Origin: Alkalicoccobacillus plakortidis
GTDB lineage: Bacteria; Bacillota; Bacilli; Bacillales; Bacillaceae_D
Assembly: GCF_023703085.1 (NCBI RefSeq)
Contig: NZ_JAMQJY010000001.1
Location: forward strand, 434,001-498,000
DNA length: 64,000 bases
Direction of reading: 5' to 3'
Shown one piece after another: positions 30,604-63,815 of this stretch. Positions within the stretch are counted from its first letter, which is position 1. Every line of letters starts with the position of its first letter. The position numbers were made by a program, and so were the translations under genes. Under the pieces are notes generated by a model. That model saw only the letters and a list, made by a program, of their open reading frames with translations, made no database searches and was not told where the DNA came from.

Positions 30604-31695
30604 GTGAAACAAGAATTTGACTCTATTTCAACGTATCAGCTAACAATCTTGATCATTAATTGCATGCTTGGTGTTGGATTTCTTGTTTTACCGAGGCGTA
30701 TTACGGTAACGCTTGACTCGCCTGATGGATGGATCTCTCTGTTAATATCAGGATTGATCATTCTGTTTGCTGTGCTCCTCCTCTTTTATTTTTTCTCAAA
30801 ACATAAAGTCAAGGACATTGTTGAATATACCGAATTAGCTTTTGGAAAGTGGATGTCTAAGTTTATCTGCATTTTATTAGTTCTTTATTTTATCTCACTA
30901 ACAGGTTATGAAGCCGTTGCGATGAGTGAGATGGTTCGATTTTTCCTTCTTGAGACGACACCGCAAATGCTTGTAGTCAGCATTATATTAGTGTTGGCCG
31001 CTTATCTCGGAAGTAGTCCAATTAATACCCTTGTAAGAGTGTGCATGTTTTTTCTTCCCTTTTGTTTAGTAGTGGTGTTCTTTATATTTTTATCTGGATT
31101 AAAAGAAGTAAATATTAATAATCTGCGGCCTGTTCTTGAGTCTGGATTCAATCCTTTTGTTAAAGGTTTTTTTAGTACAAGTCTTTCCTACTTAGGACTG
31201 GAATCTTTATTAATCTTCACTGCTTTTACTTCTGCGAAAACGAAAAAAGTGAAAGCAGCTGTCATAGGGATTGGAAGCACCTCTGTACTTTATGCTCTAA
31301 CGTATATCATCGTTGTTGGAGCATTAAGTTACCAAGAAGTTAAAACGTTAACCTGGCCAACCATTTCATTTATTCAAACGTTCAGTATTCATGGCATTTT
31401 TTTAGAGCGTCTCGATTCATTTTTATTATCTACATGGATTTTGCAATTCTTTACAATCTGTGCGATCAATACATTTAATATTTGCTACATATTGGAGAAA
31501 ACTTTCTCCCTTAAACCTCTCACAAGCTGTTTTATAATCGTACCTCTCGCATTTCTTGTTGCTTATATACCCAGCGATTCTACAGAGATTTTCCTGTTGG
31601 CTAATTTTGTCGATCGAGGTGGATTGATTTGTTTAATCGTTTTGCCATTAATTTGTTTTATCACAGTTAGTATAAAAAAGAAGGTGATTTCATGA
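30604..31695 (+). CDS. Spore germination protein, GerB family permease (B subunit)
   Basis: About 363 residues and ten or so membrane segments of the APC superfamily (GerAB/GerKB type). The start is GTG at 30604, after AAGGAGG with 8 bases spacing; the frame upstream overlaps the A gene and is not used. The N-terminus ISTYQLTILIINCMLGVGFL matches the first helices that form the germinant-binding pocket. It ends by overlapping the ATG of the C-subunit gene (ATGA), a sign of translational coupling. Confidence 0.92.
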   Translation: MKQEFDSISTYQLTILIINCMLGVGFLVLPRRITVTLDSPDGWISLLISGLIILFAVLLLFYFFSKHKVKDIVEYTELAFGKWMSKFICILLVLYFISLTGYEAVAMSEMVRFFLLETTPQMLVVSIILVLAAYLGSSPINTLVRVCMFFLPFCLVVVFFIFLSGLKEVNINNLRPVLESGFNPFVKGFFSTSLSYLGLESLLIFTAFTSAKTKKVKAAVIGIGSTSVLYALTYIIVVGALSYQEVKTLTWPTISFIQTFSIHGIFLERLDSFLLSTWILQFFTICAINTFNICYILEKTFSLKPLTSCFIIVPLAFLVAYIPSDSTEIFLLANFVDRGGLICLIVLPLICFITVSIKKKVIS

Positions 31696-32820
31696 AAAAA
31701 ACAATTAAATTGATGATCTTATTCAGTACACTTATCCTTTCTGCTTGCTGGGACAGTAGAAGTATTGAGGATATTTCGCTGGTTATTGGAGTTGGAGTAG
31801 ATGTAAGCGAAAGTGGTGAGTATATTTCACTTGGTCATCAAATTATTGTGCCTCCTAGTAATAGCGGAGATAGTTCACAGAGTGCGCCTTTTAAAAACAT
31901 TTATACAACAGGGAAAACAGTCCATGGAGCGATTCGAAATGTAGCGCTTCGCGACAATTCAGTCATTAGTGATCATCAGCGAATATTAGTTATCCGCAAA
32001 GAGGTATTACGAAAATGGACATTGGATGAAGTCATTAACCAAATGCAAAGATGACAGAACACGTCGTAGTTTATATGTATTTATTACTGATGAACCAATT
32101 AAACAAATCCTAGGTCTGTCTGATTCCGATGAAATCCCTTCTAATCAGTTATACGATTTACTTGATAATCGATGGCGGTCCACCAAAATCCTTCCTGAGG
32201 TTTCATTAGGTAAGCTCTCGTCAAATTTACAAAAAAACGTTAGCTTTGTCCTTCAAGACGTACAAATTATTGGTGGACGATTAGCTTTATCAGGCGGTGG
32301 CGTTATTAAAAATGGAAAGATCCTTGATGCAGAGCTATCAATTGATGATATAGGCACATTAAATTACTTAACAGGTGAGATTCAAGGTGGTGTCCTTTCA
32401 ACTCAATTAGATTCTATGCCTCTTGCATTTGAAATCCTTGAAGATATGTCGATTAAAGTTAAAACAAATGTAGTTAATAATCATGTTTCAATTGATATAG
32501 ATGCTGAAACATCAGGACGTATTTCTGAGGATTGGAACGAACAGGAAGATTCGTTTACGGATAAGTACAATGACCAAAGGCTAAAAGCAATTGAAGCTGA
32601 AATTCAAAAACGTGTGAATCACCTTATAAAAAAACTCCAAACCGATGTACAAGCAGATGCAGCTGGATTTGCAGAATATATGCGTGTTCAACAGCCAGAC
32701 TTTTGGGATCAGTACGGCGGTCAGTGGGATCAGTATTTTACTGAAGCAGACATTACCTATTCCATTACTGTAATTGTTGAAGACTTTGGCACCAAGGGTT
32801 CCACCAAAAAAATGCAATAA
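31692..32820 (+). CDS. Spore germination lipoprotein, Ger(x)C family (C subunit), frameshifted as read
   Basis: About 375 residues. The lipoprotein signal is MKKTIKLMILFSTLILSAC and the family motif CWDSRSIEDISLVIGVGVD follows. The frame breaks near 32041-32047 (CCAAATG, one A too many) and continues as KDDRTRRSLYVFITDE through the C-terminal domain (FAEYMRVQQPDFW). GerC lipoproteins sit on the outer leaflet of the inner spore membrane and are needed for receptor function. It overlaps the B gene by 4 bp. Confidence 0.9.
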
Positions 32821-35909: not shown

Positions 35910-36056
35910 TTTACCGCCTCTTTCTTTTTGATACACATTCATGATCTACGTTGATTAGTATACTATTGGTTGTTGAGAGGTGTAAAACGTACCATCTTGA
36001 AGAGCCAGATCATACACGATAATATTGTAGGTAAAATGGTTAGGAGGTTAAATATT

Positions 36057-36239
36057 ATGAAAGAAGCGCGTTACTTATTGTATATCATTTTATTAGGAAT
36101 TTTGACGGCATTTGTTGTGACTTTTGTTTTTTAGGAGGAAGTAAATGACGAAGAAACAACTGATGAAATTAGCGAGGGTGACTTTGTTAAAGATATAAAT
36201 GATGTTGTGGCTGATAACGTAATTTTAAAGCTACCTTAG
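36057..36239 (+). pseudogene. Small membrane protein gene with in-frame amber codon
   Basis: TAGGAGG precedes the ATG. The frame encodes one membrane helix (KEARYLLYIILLGILTAFVV, TFVF), then TAG at 36132-36134. It continues in the same frame with an acidic tail (EEVNDEETTDEISEGDFVKD, INDVVADNVILKLP) to a stop at 36237. No frameshift is needed. Either one base is wrong, the gene has decayed, or the product is a 25-residue peptide. Unknown function. Confidence 0.45.
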
Positions 36240-36492
36240 TAAGTATCGAAAAGGTGTATGATAAAACACTACATGGAAATATGAACCACAATAACATCTA
36301 ATATCAGTTTTGTTAAACCAAAAGTCTAAATTCAATGTAGTCATACTTGATTTAAGGATTTTCGCTTGGAAGGCCTTTTTCTGAGTTTCTATACAAGATT
36401 TTAGAAAAACGTTAGATTTTATTTATTTGATTAAGTATTTAGCTATAATAAAAAGTAGACTTCATAAAAAAATAAATAAAAGGCGGCATTTT

Positions 36493-36741
36493 GTGAATAA
36501 AAAAACCTATAGAATAATCTCTTTATGTTGTGTTTTATTGTCAATAATAGTTTGGATACCTAATATCATTTTAAATATCGCAAGTTCTCTCTGGCTTCTT
36601 ACTTTTGTGTTCGGAACAGTAGGCTTAGTTTTTGGTATGTTAGGCAGAAGTATTTGGTTATCCTTTGTAAATTCATTAATGACAATTAGCTTTTTTATTT
36701 TAATGTACATAGGGTATACTTGGATTTCTCTTGATTGGTAA
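36493..36741 (+). CDS. Small membrane protein, about 82 residues
   Basis: The GTG at 36493 follows AAAGGCGG at good spacing. The frame is open further upstream, but a start at 36427 has no site. Three hydrophobic segments are visible (IISLCCVLLSIIVWIPNIIL, LLTFVFGTVGLVFGMLG, LMTISFFILMYIGYTW). Unknown function. The flanking 250 bases upstream hold nothing recognisable beyond the amber-interrupted gene. Confidence 0.55.
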   Translation: MNKKTYRIISLCCVLLSIIVWIPNIILNIASSLWLLTFVFGTVGLVFGMLGRSIWLSFVNSLMTISFFILMYIGYTWISLDW

Positions 36742-36788
36742 AGTAACAAATTAGCCTTGAGCGCTCAGCCTGTTTTTTATAGTTAACT

Positions 36789-36978
36789 TCAAAGAGTTTC
36801 ATTTCCTATAATTTTTTGTAGGTTCATTTTTACTCTCAGGTCCATCTCAAGTAATATATCTTTTGTATTCAAATCACTATTAAATATTACAGTAACGCGA
36901 TATGGACTATTTCCACCCGTATTTGCAGCATACTTTACATATATATCAGCAATATCATCTTTTAGATAAATTTTAAAC
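36789..36978 (-). pseudogene. C-terminal gene fragment abutting the tRNA
   Basis: An open frame of 62 codons without a start encodes FKIYLKDDIADIYVKYAANT, GGNSPYRVTVIFNSDLNT and more, ending at 36789. It looks like the end of a real protein. Upstream it runs into a stop codon and then the tRNA 3' end 8 bp away. No parent gene is in the window. It could be a remnant left after integration or deletion next to the tRNA. Confidence 0.4.
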
Positions 36979-36985
36979 TAGTTAT

Positions 36986-37057
36986 GCCCTAGGAGAGACT
37001 CGAACTCCCGACCTATGGTTTAGGAAACCAGTGCACTATCCGCTGTGCTACTAGGGC
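36986..37057 (-). tRNA. tRNA-Arg (anticodon CCT)
   Basis: A cloverleaf is present on the minus strand: acceptor GCCCTAG/CTAGGGC with discriminator A, D-arm GCAC/GTGC, T-arm GGGAG-TTCGAGT-CTCTC. The anticodon stem TGGT/ACCA carries the loop TTCCTA. The loop is one base short; the usual form is TTCCTAA, which gives anticodon CCT. A dropped A in the short A run would explain both the loop and the total length of 72 instead of 73. CCA is not encoded. Confidence 0.78.
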
Positions 37058-37130
37058 TGAATTTTATTGCAAGTTCTATCTTATTGAAAGATTGTGGATT
37101 TAGCAAGATTTGTGTCTTTTTTGATGTTAG

Positions 37131-37462
37131 CAAGATAAAGCATCCATTTACTAAGACGGTTAAGGAGTTGGCAAGAGCATGGAGCACTTACAAAGAGAGA
37201 TGAACTAGTTAATAAGATAGGTCAGCTTATAATCAAGAAGTAGACCTCTTCACCAAGAACTACCTGAACTTAATCAAGAAGTAGACCTCTTCACCAAGAA
37301 CTACCTGAACTTAATCAAGAAGTAGACCTCTTCATCAAGAACTTCCTCAACTTAACCAAGAAGTAGACCTCTTCACCAAGAACTATCTATACTTAATCAA
37401 GAAAGAGTTCCCTTCATCAAGAGCATTCGACACATAGCAAGAGGAATGACCATTTACCAAGC
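37131..37462. repeat. Phased CAAGA array 1 (17 units, 20-21 bp spacing; 41-bp tandem core)
   Basis: CAAGA or a one-base variant starts at 37131, 37152, 37172, 37192, 37213, 37234, 37254, 37275, 37295, 37316, 37336, 37357, 37377, 37398, 37418, 37438 and 37458. The mean spacing is 20.4 bp. Between 37231 and 37434 the sequence between motifs is also conserved, giving five 41-bp tandem copies, each with two motifs. The period is not a multiple of three, so the array is not coding. It lies between the tRNA-Arg and the 3' end of exoA. Confidence 0.85.
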
Positions 37463-37483
37463 CCCTCCTCCCCACTCCCAGTG

Positions 37484-38240
37484 TTAAACCTCAAGATCTA
37501 GCTTCACCGGACAATGATCACTGCCGTAGATATGTGAGTCAATACCTGCATCCTTTATCTTATCTTCCAATTGCTTAGAGACAATAAAGTAGTCAATACG
37601 CCAACCGATATTTCGCTCACGAACCTTGGACATATACGACCACCATGTAAAGGCATCATCACGCTCAGGATAAAAAAGTCGGAAGGAATCTAAGTAACCA
37701 GCTTCTAATAAACGGTTAAACTTGCCTCTTTCTTGATCTGTAAATCCAGCGTTACCGATATTAGCACGGTCATTTTTTACATCGTTAGGCTGGTGTGCAA
37801 CGTTTAGGTCGCCGCATAAGATAACGGGTTTGTTCTCTTCAAGCTGACTGATATAACGGCGAGCTGCCTCTTCCCAGAGCATACGATAGCCTAGGCGCGT
37901 GAGATCTCGTTTTGCATTCGGTGTGTACATGGTTATAAGATAAAACTCTTCATATTCTAATGTAATGACACGACCTTCAAGATCTTCTATTTCTTCACCT
38001 AGTCCGTAGGTAACTGACAGAGGTTCTTTTTTGGTGAATATCGCTGTGCCGGAGTATCCTTTTTTCTCGGCATAGTTCCAGTATTGCTTGGTAGCCTTTA
38101 AGATCTAGCTCGATTTGTCCTGCTTGTAACTTTGTTTCTTGTAAGCAGAAAAAGTCTGCATTCTCCTCATGAAAATAATCTAAAAAGCCTTTTTTGACAC
38201 AGGCACGGATGCCGTTTACGTTCCAAGATATAAATTTCAT
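37484..38240 (-). CDS. exoA: Exodeoxyribonuclease III (ExoA/Xth), frameshifted as read
   Basis: About 252 residues with the AP-endonuclease fold. Motifs are MKFISWNVNGIRA (metal/active site), FFCLQETKLQ, LITMYTPNAKRD, VILCGDLNVAHQ, and the C-terminal YGSDHCPVKLDL with catalytic Asp-His. The frame breaks at 38096-38101 (CCAAGC where CCAGC restores YQQYWNYAEKKGYSG). The enzyme cuts at abasic sites and degrades 3' ends during base-excision repair. The start at 38240 is preceded by GGGGGA. Confidence 0.9.
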
Positions 38241-38356
38241 ACATTCCCCCATAAAGCGTTAAGCTAATTGTTTGACGTTCGACAACTACTCCATCATAAT
38301 GGACAAAACCTAACCGGTCTACCTTTAGTCTCATCAAAAAAGATCAAGCAAAAATC

Positions 38357-38385
38357 TTGAAAGGTCAGAAATGGTCAGGTATAAT
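38357..38385 (+). promoter_or_regulatory. clpE promoter P1 with CtsR box in the spacer
   Basis: TTGAAA (38357-38362), an exact 17-bp spacer and TATAAT (38380-38385). The whole spacer is a CtsR box, GGTCAGA-AAT-GGTCAGG (heptads 3 bases apart), so repressor binding would exclude RNA polymerase. Confidence 0.85.
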
Positions 38386-38419
38386 ACAACTATAATCAAA
38401 AAACACACAAGCAGTTCAT

Positions 38420-38448
38420 TTGACGATGAGTTGCTAACGTTTTAAGAT
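38420..38448 (+). promoter_or_regulatory. Second possible clpE promoter P2
   Basis: TTGACG (38420-38425), a 17-bp spacer and TAAGAT (38443-38448). Two CtsR boxes lie just downstream. Confidence 0.55.
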
Positions 38449-38451
38449 TAA

Positions 38452-38513
38452 GGTCAGACTTAGTCAAAACCTTTGATCTTTATTTTTTCTCGCAAAGGTC
38501 AAAGTTAATCAAA
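38452..38513 (+). promoter_or_regulatory. Two further CtsR operators upstream of clpE
   Basis: GGTCAGA-CTT-AGTCAAA (38452-38468) and GGTCAAA-GTT-AATCAAA (38497-38513) both fit the tandem-heptad CtsR consensus with 3-base spacing. With the box in P1 this makes three operators, as expected for a tightly repressed clp gene. Confidence 0.85.
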
Positions 38514-38548
38514 GTCTAATTTCACTCTTACTTAGGAGGAATGTAAAC

Positions 38549-40660
38549 ATGAAATGTCAACATTGTCAGCAACGTGATGCTTCAGTCGATGTTAAATTAA
38601 TGATCAATAACCAAGCAAGGAATATACAGCTCTGCGCGGAATGTTTTCAAATGATGCAACAACCTCTAAATAATCAAGGTGGATCATTTGATGATCTGTT
38701 TAAACAATACTTTGCCAATCAAGGCTCAAACTCATCTCAAGGTGTTCGTCAAAAGGTAAAAGAGGATAAAGGTGCTGGTAATGGTTTCCTTGATCAATAT
38801 GGTCGCAATCTAACTGCTAGCGCAAAAAATGGTCAGATTGATCCTGTTATTGGTCGTGAAGAGGAAGTTGAACGTGTTATTCAAGTGCTTAGTCGTCGCA
38901 CCAAAAATAATCCGGTTTTAATCGGTGAAGCTGGTGTTGGTAAAACTGCGATTGCAGAAGGTCTAGCTCGCCGTATTGCCGAAGGATCTGTTCCTTTTAA
39001 AATGAAAGATAAGCAAATTTATAGCTTAGATCTTACATCTCTTGTTGCAGGAACTAGCTACCGAGGTCAGTTTGAAGAAAATATTCAAAAGTTGATTCAA
39101 GAGGTTGAAGAAAGACAAGATGTCATCCTCTTTATGGATGAGATTCATATGATGGTTGGTGCAGGTGCTTCCAATGATGGTAGTATGGACGCTTCAAACA
39201 TTCTAAAACCGGCTCTAGCTCGTGGGAAATTCCAATTGATTGGAGCAACAACATTAAAAGAGTTCCGTCAAATTGAAAAAGATGCCGCTTTAGAACGTCG
39301 TTTTCAGCCGGTAAATGTTAAGGAGCCAACACTTGAGCAAACATATGAAATTCTTCAAGGCTTGCGTCCTATCTATGAATCGTATCACCATGTAGCTTAT
39401 TCAGATGAAGTTTTACGTGCAAGTGTAGCGTTATCTGATCGCTATATTCAGGATCGCTTCCTACCAGATAAGGCGATTGACTTGTTAGACGAAGTTGGTT
39501 CAAGACTCTCTCTATCGGATGAAAATCAGGATAAAGAGCAAATTGAGGAACGCTTAACGAAAATCCGTGCTGAGAAACAACAGGCTTCAGAGGTAGAGGA
39601 TTATGAAAAAGCAGCGTTGCTTCGTCAGGAAGAGCTTGTTTTACTTGAGCAAAAAGAAAAAACTACTGGTGCTGCCGTAGAAGTGACTGTTGATTTAATT
39701 CAAGATGTCATAGAAAAACGTACAGGTATTCCAGTTAAGAAATTGCAAAAAGCGGAACAGCAAAAAATGAAAGATCTTGCTTCCCGTCTTCAAGGTCAGG
39801 TGATTGGTCAGGAAGAAGCTGTTGAGAAAGTAGCTAAGGCTGTAAAACGTAGTCGAGCTGGTTTGAAAGCAGCCAACCGCCCAATTAGCTTCATGTTTAT
39901 TGGCCCAACTGGGGTTGGTAAAACAGAGTTAAGTAAAACACTTGCAGCTGAGGTCTTTGGTAGCCGAGATGCTATGATTCGTCTTGATATGAGTGAGTTT
40001 ATGGAGAAACACTCTGTCTCTAAACTAATTGGTTCTCCTCCAGGCTATGTTGGTCATGATGAAGGTGGACAGTTAACAGAACAGGTTCGTCGTAAGCCAT
40101 ACAGCATTATTTTGCTTGATGAGATTGAAAAAGCCCATCCTGATGTGCAGCATAGCTTCCTGCAAATTTTAGAGGATGGTCGCCTAACAGACAGCCAAGG
40201 TCGAGTGGTTTCCTTCCAAGACACTATCATAATCATGACTTCTAACGCAGGTGCTGGTGTTCAAAAAGCTTCGGTTGGATTTAACAACAGCCAAAGCAAA
40301 ACGCTTGGTATGCTTGAAGCACTGAATGATTATTTCAAACCTGAGTTTTTAAACCGGTTTGATAGCATCATTGAATTTAACCAGCTTGCGCAAGATCATT
40401 TAGTTGCGATTGTTGATGTAATGCTTAACGAGCTTCAAGAACGTCTTGATGCACAAAGCATTAGCATGTCTGTAACGGATGAAGCCAAGAGAAAATTATC
40501 AGAGCTTGGCTATCACCCTGCATTTGGGGCACGTCCACTTCGTCGTGTCATTCAAGAAACGATTGAAGATGAGATCACTGAGTTAATCATTGATGAAGAA
40601 ACACTAGGAGCTGTTCACGTTACAGTTGAAGATGAAAAATTAGTTGTGCAAAAAGTGTAA
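38549..40660 (+). CDS. clpE: ATP-dependent Clp protease ATP-binding subunit ClpE
   Basis: 703 residues. The N-terminal zinc finger [11 protein letters not shown]...LCAECF, with two CxxC pairs, distinguishes ClpE from ClpC. AAA domain 1 has Walker [14 protein letters not shown] and Walker [15 protein letters not shown]-type coiled coil follows ([20 protein letters not shown]). AAA domain 2 has [13 protein letters not shown] and [15 protein letters not shown], and the C-terminal D2-small domain is present. It unfolds damaged proteins for ClpP and helps to disaggregate and to inactivate CtsR. Start after AGGAGG. Under CtsR control by three operators. Confidence 0.97.
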
Positions 40661-40722: not shown

Positions 40723-41504
40723 CTATAACAAAGACTGCGCCCCGTCTACGTACATTTCTACACCTGATACATGGCTCGCCTTATCAGAGCATAAAAAGCC
40801 AACAACTTCAGCTACTTGCTCTGGCTTGCCATGCCCACCAAGTGGTATATTCCCTTGTGGGTATTCAATAGGAATACGAATTTCCTCTACATTATCGCGA
40901 ATATGCGTGTTTTCTCCGATATTTGTTTCAATGGCTCCAGGACAGATTGCGTTCACACGGATTCTAAATCGGCCAAGTTCAACGGCAGCCATCTTCATAA
41001 ATGCCACTTGTCCCGCTTTCGATACACTGTACGCACTCATTCCAAGCGCCAAGCGAACGTACGATTGCCATTAACTGAGCTCGTAATGACAATGCTACCT
41101 CCTGCTTTTTTCATGTATGGGATTGCATGCTTTGTGGTAATAAAGGTACTTCTTAAATTTGTATGTTGGGTTTGATCCCAATCAGCTACATCCATATGTT
41201 CAATGGCTGAAAATACGCCATTTACACCTGCATTTGCAACAACCGCTTTGATTGGCCCTTCCCACTTCTTAGATACTAATTCAAATGCTTGTTGGATATC
41301 CTCTTCACTTTGCACATCTACTTGCACAAATAACGCTTCCTGCCCCATTAAACGAATTTCTTCTACTGTTTGTTTGCCTTTATCTTCATCCCTATCAAAA
41401 ACAGCAACATGGTAGCCTTGTTTGGCTAGTTGCAGAGCTGATTGCTTTCCAATACCAGAGGCGCTTCCTGTTACTATAGCTATTGAGATACCGTGGTTTG
41501 TCAT
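40723..41504 (-). CDS. Short-chain dehydrogenase/reductase, frameshifted as read
   Basis: About 260 residues. The N-terminal part has TGSASGIG, ANAGVNGVF and the Ser segment SIVITSSVNGNRTF. The C-terminal part has MSAYSVSKAGQVAFMKMAAV (YxxxK) and RVNAICPGAIETNI. The join at 41042-41054 contains two CCAAGC sites seven bases apart. If both were CCAGC, the sequence would read TFAGAGMSAYS, with the right frame and the normal loop length. The role is an NAD(P)-dependent alcohol/carbonyl redox reaction; the substrate is unknown. It is convergent with clpE. Confidence 0.85.
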
Positions 41505-62175: not shown

Positions 62176-63054
62176 ATGGAGCGTTATAGCCAACTTAAAA
62201 AAGGTGAAAAGGGCGCATGGCTCAGCATCATCACATATATTATTTTAGCCGCAGTAAAGCTGACCATTGGCACACTGTTTTTTTCAGATGCATTACGCGC
62301 AGATGGTTTAAATAATGCTACAGACATTGTAGCTTCAATAGCTGTGTTAGTAGGCTTGCGAATTTCACAAAAGCCACCTGATGCCAATCATCCCTATGGT
62401 CATTTTCGCGCTGAAAATATTGCCTCACTCATTGCTGCGTTTATTATGGCAGCAGTTGGACTCCAAGTCTTGGTGGAGGCTGGCCGAAAATTATTTACTG
62501 AACCAGAAGCACCAGATCTGACAGCCGGTTGGGTAAGTTTTATTTGTGCCTTAATTATGTTTGTTGTTTATCGTTATAATAAAAAACTCGCTAAAGACGT
62601 AAACAGCCAGGCATTAGTTGCTGTTGCGGCAGATAATCGTTCAGACGCCTTAGTAAGTATTGGTGTAACGATTGGAATCCTTGCTTCTCAGTGGAATATC
62701 GCATGGCTTGACACATTAACAGCCTTCATTATTGGACTGTTAATCTGCTATACAGCATTTGATATCTTTCAAAAAGCAACACATTCACTAACTGACGGTT
62801 TTCACGAGCGTGACCTGAATCAATATAAAGCCTCCATCGAGGTTCTTGAGCACGTAGAGGCCTTAAAAGTTGTTAAAGCACGACAGGTTGGCTCATCAAT
62901 CTATGCAGATGTAGTGATTGAAGTATCTCCTGATTTAAATGTAAGGGATAGCCACAGAATTGCCGATCAAGTAGAAGAAGTGATGCGTGACGAACACCAA
63001 ATCTCAAACACTCATGTGCATGTTGAACCATCTGAGGAAACGAAGCAAAGTTAA
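62176..63054 (+). CDS. mneS: Cation diffusion facilitator, MneS/YeaB-like manganese exporter
   Basis: 292 residues with six membrane helices and a C-terminal cytoplasmic ferredoxin-like domain. SDALRADGLNNATDIVASIA supplies metal-site Asp residues, DANHPYGHFRAENIASLIAA follows, and AADNRSDALVSIGVTIGI forms the second half of the site. It closely resembles B. subtilis YeaB (MneS). It exports divalent metal, probably Mn, in exchange for protons. It stands alone and is followed by a strong terminator. The metal is inferred from similarity. Confidence 0.85.
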   Translation: MERYSQLKKGEKGAWLSIITYIILAAVKLTIGTLFFSDALRADGLNNATDIVASIAVLVGLRISQKPPDANHPYGHFRAENIASLIAAFIMAAVGLQVLVEAGRKLFTEPEAPDLTAGWVSFICALIMFVVYRYNKKLAKDVNSQALVAVAADNRSDALVSIGVTIGILASQWNIAWLDTLTAFIIGLLICYTAFDIFQKATHSLTDGFHERDLNQYKASIEVLEHVEALKVVKARQVGSSIYADVVIEVSPDLNVRDSHRIADQVEEVMRDEHQISNTHVHVEPSEETKQS

Positions 63055-63071
63055 GAGCGACTCATCATGAT

Positions 63072-63101
63072 AAACGATCCTTCGATTAGGATCGTTTTTT
63101 T
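63072..63101 (+). terminator. Terminator of the cation efflux gene
   Basis: AAACGATCC (63072-63080) and GGATCGTTT (63089-63097) form a perfect stem, followed by T residues. Confidence 0.9.
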
Positions 63102-63141: not shown

Positions 63142-63815
63142 TCCTGGTGCGGCGTGCGAGGTCTTACTGTCGAGTGTAGTCTCTTGGTGCGGCGTAAGCA
63201 CTTCTTGCTAACGTGGGCCTTTCTCTTGCTAAGGTAGAGTAGCTCTTGGTTTTACTGCTGCTTTTCTTGGTGTAGGTGCACTGAGCTTAGTAATTGTTTG
63301 GTTTCGCTTGACGTTTCATCAAATTCTCTTGCTATCGTAGTTAGTCTCTTGATGAATCAAAGATTTATCTTAGTTACAATTACATGTTTCTTGGTATTGA
63401 GCTTGGTTTACTCTTGCTTTGGGTTTTCCTTCTAATCGGTCTAAACCTGAATAGGTTTACTCCTTTTAGTCATTTTGAGGGTTGAGAAATGGGTTGCTCT
63501 TTTTATTTGAAGATGGCTCTTGGTGTGATGCAGGAGATTCTTGCCATAGTTGCTATTTCTCTTGTTAACGTAAAGTAGCTCTTACTCCCACCACTGTTTT
63601 TCTTAGAGTAGGTGCACTGAGCTTAGTAATTGTTTGGTTTCTCTTGACGTTTCGTCATTTACTCTGGCTATCCCTACTCGTCTCTTGATGGTTTAACTAT
63701 CTTGCTTGGTCTCAATCATGTGTTTCTTGGTATTGCTTTTAGTCCTTTTCCTCTCCTGTTTTAAGTTCTTGTTTTTCTAGAAAAATGCTTGGCATCACAT
63801 GTTGGAAGATCTTGA
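63142..63815. repeat. Phased CAAGA array 2 (minus orientation) with an internal 336-bp duplication
   Basis: TCTTG (CAAGA on the minus strand) or a near variant recurs at 63162, 63182, 63203, 63224, 63244, 63265, 63285, 63306, 63327, 63347, 63368, 63389. It resumes at 63498, 63518, 63539, 63560, 63580, 63601, 63621, 63642, 63663, 63683, 63704, 63725, 63767 and 63787. Spacing is 20-21 bp. The block around 63224-63405 recurs 336 bp later with partial identity (for example GGTGCACTGAGCTTAGTAAT in both). No reading frame or terminator-like hairpin is seen. Confidence 0.8.

Follow-up and report, generated by a model that had tools for sequence, protein, structure and literature searches.

Helically phased TCTTG arrays as a family of chromosomal satellites in Alkalicoccobacillus

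Introduction

Tandem repeats of a constant 20–21 or 52 nt, with a variable, species-specific sequence and short signals, have been described in Bacillus, and a protein polymerizing on the DNA, a role in the nucleoid or small RNAs have been proposed to explain them (Subirana and Messeguer 2021, PMC8161180). Such satellites have been listed from numerous Bacillus genomes with no function assigned to them. The arrays of TCTTG words that we describe here resemble them in being non-coding, in their step of 20–21 nt, in occurring many times per genome, and in having a species-specific sequence around a short shared signal; in addition, forms of 40–41 nt are noted as related in the legend to Figure 2 of PMC8161180, and a core of 41 bp is found here. 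A satellite of this type has at least 4 repeats of a constant 20–21 nt (within 1 nt) that do not encode an amino-acid repeat, and the array from which this work started has 17 non-coding sites. The signals are different, TCGCGG in the published example from B. weihaiensis versus TCTTGNT, many of our arrays are too diverged for a tandem repeat finder, unlike the published satellites, and the text of PMC8161180 contains no test of constraint between orthologues, of replication polarity or of IS targeting, unlike the present analysis. A preliminary description of our locus had held that no element of this form was known, and in this it was wrong; the general kind is already known, and what is supported here is a constraint on the position of the motif. 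Titles and abstract openings in the open-licence literature gave no explanation of these repeats.

REP/BIME sequences are also dispersed and extragenic and are insertion targets of specific IS elements (PMC1525189); they are palindromic, however, whereas the arrays consist of direct, non-palindromic units in a two-turn phase. With CRISPR the arrays share the regular alternation of a constant word and variable sequence, but here the constant part is ∼5–11 bp, the spacers are 15–16 bp and there are dozens of loci. Plasmid iterons and centromere-like repeats are direct repeats approximately two turns apart that are thought to be bound head to tail; the arrays, in contrast, are chromosomal and lie at many loci. 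Orthologous arrays here give direct evidence that a named word and its spacing are constrained, and arrays share chromosomal sites between species, which turns the function of these satellites into testable questions, namely which protein binds TCTTG arrays and how the chromosome fares in their absence.

Materials and Methods

The window is a stretch of 64,000 nt from the A. plakortidis genome (denoted G000); G001–G004 are other genomes of the genus Alkalicoccobacillus. Chains were built from exact TCTTG only, so that arrays broken by an out-of-phase copy were missed (as for L203, found later), and arrays with fewer than 4 chained motifs were omitted. The arrays of G000 are those at the first listed places of contig 1 and thus a part of its matches. 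Genes were taken as simple open reading frames of at least 130 aa, and polarity was scored by local GC skew, with arrays left unscored where |GC skew| was ≤0.02 (G003 1, G001 2, G004 2, G002 2, G000 1). The search across genera was fixed on TCTTG and covers that word alone, while the comparison of positions between species covers the fetched loci only and gives no rate.

Results and Discussion

The array beside tRNA-Arg (array 1, Table 1) is flanked by the 3′ end of an exoA-like gene on one side and by the tRNA on the other. A simple scoring scan placed its sites at steps of 20, 20, 20, 21, 20, 21, 20, 21, 20, 21, 20, 21, 21, 20, 20 and 21 bp (minus strand, 5′ to 3′), for a mean of 327/16 = 20.4 bp, with 13 of the 17 sites reading exactly CAAGA on the plus strand and the remaining 4 being one-base variants (CAAGC, TAAGA, AAAGA and TAAGA). 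Positions 37031–37500 contain 15 exact motifs and 45 in-phase pairs; in 1000 dinucleotide shuffles of this segment the corresponding means were 1.6 motifs (maximum 6) and 0.07 in-phase pairs (maximum 2). The phased CAAGA motifs and the 41-bp tandem core of the preliminary description, and the excess of periodicity over shuffled sequence that it proposed to look for, are all borne out. So is its statement that the array is non-coding: no open frame of at least 80 aa spans most of it and neither 41 bp nor the mean step of 20.4 bp is a multiple of three, which rules out a coding repeat for array 1 (open frames of 84–296 aa run across some of the other arrays and are taken as chance). CRISPR had been dismissed as well, in agreement with the shortness of the conserved part and with the lack of cas genes among the flanking genes scanned. 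Rfam matches in 36000–39000 are limited to the tRNA, and a phage or plasmid origin was rejected as blastn gave no match at E 1e-5, in a search from which the records nearest to the window's own genome were possibly excluded.

Table 1. Positions of the arrays and neighboring features in the window
Feature	Position	Strand	Remarks
GerAC-like gene	31692–32820		split over two open frames
tRNA-Arg (anticodon cct)	36985–37057	−	same strand as array 1, downstream
Array 1	37131–37462	−	17 in-phase TCTTG-like sites (plus strand: CAAGA); mean step 20.4 bp
Array 1 core, 41-bp tandem repeat	37230–37403	−	4.2 copies, 92% match; two units per copy
exoA-like exonuclease gene	37484–38252	−	two open frames (37484–37930, 37995–38252); end ∼20 bp from array 1
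Short-chain dehydrogenase gene	40723–41504		split over two open frames
Cation-efflux family gene	62176–63054	+	upstream of array 2
Terminator-like hairpin and T run	63072–63097	+	between upstream gene and array 2
Array 2	63182–63771	+	same motif; 15 chained exact motifs in several blocks

The adjacency of tRNA-Arg looks incidental, because scans of the genes beside other arrays gave ordinary protein genes, housekeeping genes among them. At the exoA locus an array is present in G000 and G002 only, with diverged spacers and a phase that is partly kept; neither tRNA nor array occurs within 900 bp after exoA in G001 and G003. Beyond the tRNA-Arg of G002 (L197) we noted by eye a reverse-strand sequence resembling the end of an integrase, and the tRNA may be an integration site.

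A second array, absent from the preliminary description, lies near the end of the window on the strand opposite to array 1, and its motif blocks were not reported by TRF. The window as a whole contains 13 occurrences of the three-motif pattern, as opposed to 0 in 100 shuffles. The GerAC-like, exoA-like and short-chain dehydrogenase genes are each split over two open frames, and glyA is also shortened in this assembly; exoA-like is a single frame of 256–306 aa in G001–G004. The split genes of the window and the short glyA are either assembly errors or pseudogenes.

A search for three TCTTG words at steps of 20–21 bp gave 493 matches in the window's genome and 42, 204, 51 and 1008 in the other four of the genus, with 1 and 5, 0, 3 and 1 for the reversed pattern; at steps of 25–26 bp there were 0 matches for TCTTG in the five genomes. 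Arrays in the same phase, which the preliminary description had suggested looking for elsewhere in the genome and in relatives, are thus carried by all five genomes of the genus examined. Their unit has a consensus of approximately BYTCTTGVTDW, in which T at +6 is found in 73–97% of units in sets of at least 40 units (34% in the 26-unit set of leading-strand units from G002) and T at +5 is rare. The units within one array all lie on the same strand, and the word TCTTGNT is not self-complementary. Distances between motifs peak at 20/21, 41, 62, 82 bp and onward with few in between, and the fitted periods are 20.39–20.67 bp in the five genomes, with residuals of 0.39–0.54 bp. A step of 20.4–20.7 bp corresponds to two turns of B-DNA, which brings all sites of an array onto a single face of the helix. 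In 39 of 65 long-chain arrays the spacers are diverged, with a mean spacer identity of 0.30, and the order of steps in these 39 arrays is more regular than in permuted steps (0/2000), although inherited duplicated 41-bp pairs may account for part of this regularity. In G038, from another family, a mean of 20.57 bp is reached through steps of 21, 21, 21 and 19. Both in the genus and in G038, these values are in keeping with constraint on the average helical register.

We compared nine orthologous arrays of G001 and G003 over gap-free blocks, counting columns in both directions and excluding the pair L064/L208, which has internal duplications. Where TCTTG is called in one species, the other has a different base at 41 of 775 positions (∼5%), and for the T at +6 this is so at 5 of 144; the spacers differ at 1364 of 4066 (34%) and the flanks, which are partly coding, at 754 of 5124. 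Bootstrapping over the nine arrays places the ratio of core to spacer divergence at 0.10–0.23. A looser count without the block filter gave 60/827 for TCTTG, 9/154 for T at +6, 1310/3976 for spacers and 1393/6541 for flanks, and of the 92 motifs called in G001, G003 has 64 in exact form. At fourfold sites of exoA there are differences at 44 of 89, so that the divergence of spacers is lower than at these sites and that of the motif far lower. Gaps open 11 times over the 2845 columns of the arrays and 34 times over the 2904 of the flanks. Counted by hand, 73 of 83 steps have the same length in both species, the other ten lying at alignment failures or longer gaps. The selection on motif position postulated in the preliminary description is supported in that orthologous arrays keep motif and spacing while their spacers diverge; the comparison of relatives, rather than array 1 itself, argues for strong constraint on the motif across the array family.

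These data bear directly on whether the arrays could be neutral satellites, generated by slippage and duplication, that retain the motif as a relic or as a mutational anchor. Tandem duplications are clear, both in the core of array 1 and in repeated blocks of ∼278 bp in arrays of G001, and array content varies between species at some loci. However, the low ratio of core to spacer divergence in orthologous, collinear arrays, the conservation of steps and the scarcity of gaps are all contrary to neutrality, and we regard this explanation as highly improbable.

The explanation that we prefer, to which we give about an even chance, is that the arrays are sites for a cooperative DNA-binding protein whose polar filaments at the ends of genes have a part in structuring or segregating the chromosome. 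The arrays would then be a genus-wide family of chromosomal satellites offering one site per unit every 20.4–20.7 bp, to which a sequence-specific protein would bind cooperatively and head to tail, one unit per two turns, building a polar nucleoprotein filament at the ends of genes that could act in organizing or segregating the chromosome. The phase, the consensus, the constraint on the motif, the small number of indels, the shared positions, the preference for convergent ends, the partial polarity and the IS targeting are computed; the protein, the filament and the chromosomal role we infer from them, and such a protein would probably have some chromosomal role. A cooperative DNA-binding or nucleoid protein had already been invoked in the preliminary description, and the idea survives as our preferred explanation.

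Several arrays occupy the same chromosomal positions in different species. The gap before a NERD-domain gene has an array on the same strand in G000, G001, G002 and G003, L046/L065/L206 are in the same gap and on the same strand in G000, G001 and G003, and two further gaps have arrays common to G000 and G002. L066/L204 share a position on opposite strands, and L040/L205 were rejected as one shared position since the arrays are in different gaps. An array at glyA, first seen in G003 and G001, was then sought in the other three genomes and proved to be present in G000 and G002 and missing in G004, which, together with the exoA array of only G000 and G002, indicates that single arrays can be lost or gained. 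The largest shared array (L057 13440–14391, L064, L070 and L208) is located between small transporter-like genes, near spoIIID, on one side and the NERD-domain gene on the other, and the NERD gene of G000 and G002 has another array behind it.

A gene context could be assigned to 76 of the 83 arrays and not to the other 7. Thirty-three lie between convergent genes, 5 between divergent genes and the remainder between co-directional genes, with TCTTG in the sense strand in 22 and antisense in 16, compared with 19 convergent and 57 divergent among 170 other gaps. Convergent gaps are favored (Fisher p 4.6e-8) and divergent ones avoided (2.4e-6), with p values that are too small because arrays are partly orthologous across species and the pooled counts are not independent. 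A promoter role was rejected, as promoter-like matches are at or below chance.

The arrays might also act as RNA, transcribed into satellite RNAs that bind a protein or base-pair. The 52-nt satellites of B. coagulans were detected in RNA-seq data (PMC8161180; PMC8625621), and folding of the first 240 nt of array 1 gives z −3.0 on the TCTTG strand (20 shuffles). No fold is common to the arrays, however: over 67 of them the mean z is −0.27 and −0.28 on the two strands, with z < −2 in 9 and 11. The split of 22 sense to 16 antisense between co-directional genes and a helical spacing that has no evident meaning for RNA speak against it too, and an RNA function appears very unlikely.

In G003 four copies of an IS3-family transposase gene, 96–100% identical, are all inside arrays (L072, L201, L206 and L212), which make up 0.14% of this genome. 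The array sequence resumes on both sides of the copies, with apparent 4-bp duplications beside CAAGN-like words (by eye). A fifth relative of 69% identity, which contains a stop, is outside arrays, and the element was found in one of the five genus genomes (E ≤ 1e-100). The repeated 295-aa open frame had been a candidate for the protein that binds the arrays and was rejected once it proved to be this transposase. One can then ask whether the motif is recognized by a transposase or another protein of a mobile element, with the arrays as REP-like landing pads or as repeats spread by the element. The four of four close copies, the targeting of REPs by IS elements as described in PMC1525189 and a location at gene ends like that of other extragenic repeats are in keeping with this. 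It is nonetheless unlikely: the element passes this search threshold in a single genome whereas arrays occur in all five, the diverged relative lies elsewhere, the units lack the palindromy of REPs, and a long-term constraint at fixed positions exceeds what a passive target would need.

In three genomes of the genus the arrays are strongly polar relative to replication. Of the 18 arrays scored in G003, 17 have TCTTG on the lagging-sense strand (the exception being L203), as do all 11 of those scored in G001 and 10 of 11 for G004, but G002 has only 3 of 6 and G000 11 of 30 (arrays among the matches listed). Many arrays are common to G001 and G003 through descent, and the counts for these two are not independent. 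Scored by chromosome arm, 16 of 18 G003 loci agree, assuming a terminus opposite dnaA. Without a skew threshold the values are 4/4 in G129, 4/4 in G023 and 3/11 in G038. In the background the two words are balanced for G003 (165:163), G001 (83:78) and G004 (70:75) and less so for G002 (82:54), and base composition was rejected as the cause of the polarity; in G000, further arrays at the same loci inflate the background count (790:340). Polarity as a rule for the whole genus was rejected as well, since it does not hold in G000 or G002, nor in G038. The loci of G003 crowd toward the origin, with 15 of 18 within 700 kb of dnaA (p 5e-5, for a cut-off picked after viewing the positions), while those of G000, among the matches listed, extend to the far side of the chromosome.

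The lagging-sense bias in G003, G001 and G004, the balanced background of G003 and the crowding near its origin raise the idea that the arrays serve as directional signposts to a machine moving from origin to terminus, for example SMC condensin, the replisome or SpoIIIE/FtsK. Facing one way relative to travel, a filament of proteins arranged head to tail might halt, load or turn the machine, in a way comparable to oriented CTCF sites in animals. With 19 of 30 arrays in G000 and 8 of 11 in G038 pointing the other way, an even split in G002 and the shared descent of G001 and G003, we consider this decidedly unlikely.

The same crowding, along with direct repeats that are not palindromic and have the two-turn spacing of plasmid iterons, could be read as sites that bind or titrate a replication initiator or regulator, pairing of arrays (handcuffing) then controlling replication. 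Yet the arrays are dispersed beside housekeeping genes, array 1 has no blastn counterpart in plasmids or phages, no initiator or partition genes were seen beside the arrays examined, and the arrays listed for G000 extend to the opposite side of the chromosome. In G003 the scan of 16 non-IS flanking genes gave a single replication gene, the replicative helicase dnaB at one array, with no origin or initiator. We place this explanation last in probability, as most improbable.

The cooperative protein that we prefer must also be viewed against other genera. At least one match was found in 63 of 149 genomes, outside the genus mostly one or two, and many of the 80 loci listed, out of 120, are simple or possibly coding repeats. 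Near relatives can differ, as with two genomes of one genus, G088 with 64 matches and G037 with none. In some other genera the word is extended differently, to TTCTTGAAAA in G038, TTCTTGATAT in G129 and CTCTTGTCCG in G023, and this difference means that no single conserved binder is implied. The period is 20.91 in G023 and exactly 20.00 in some TCTTG repeats of several other genera, the latter fitting two turns less well and so counting against a protein. Were a polymerizing protein to be found, it would represent a nucleoid system with a binding word that differs between genera.

TCTTG is not a universal word, as the reversed control word forms repeats of the same spacing in a few other genera. 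These amount to 57 + 54 matches in G128, 17 in G042 and 16 + 1 in G092, and hint at arrays built on other words in these three genomes.
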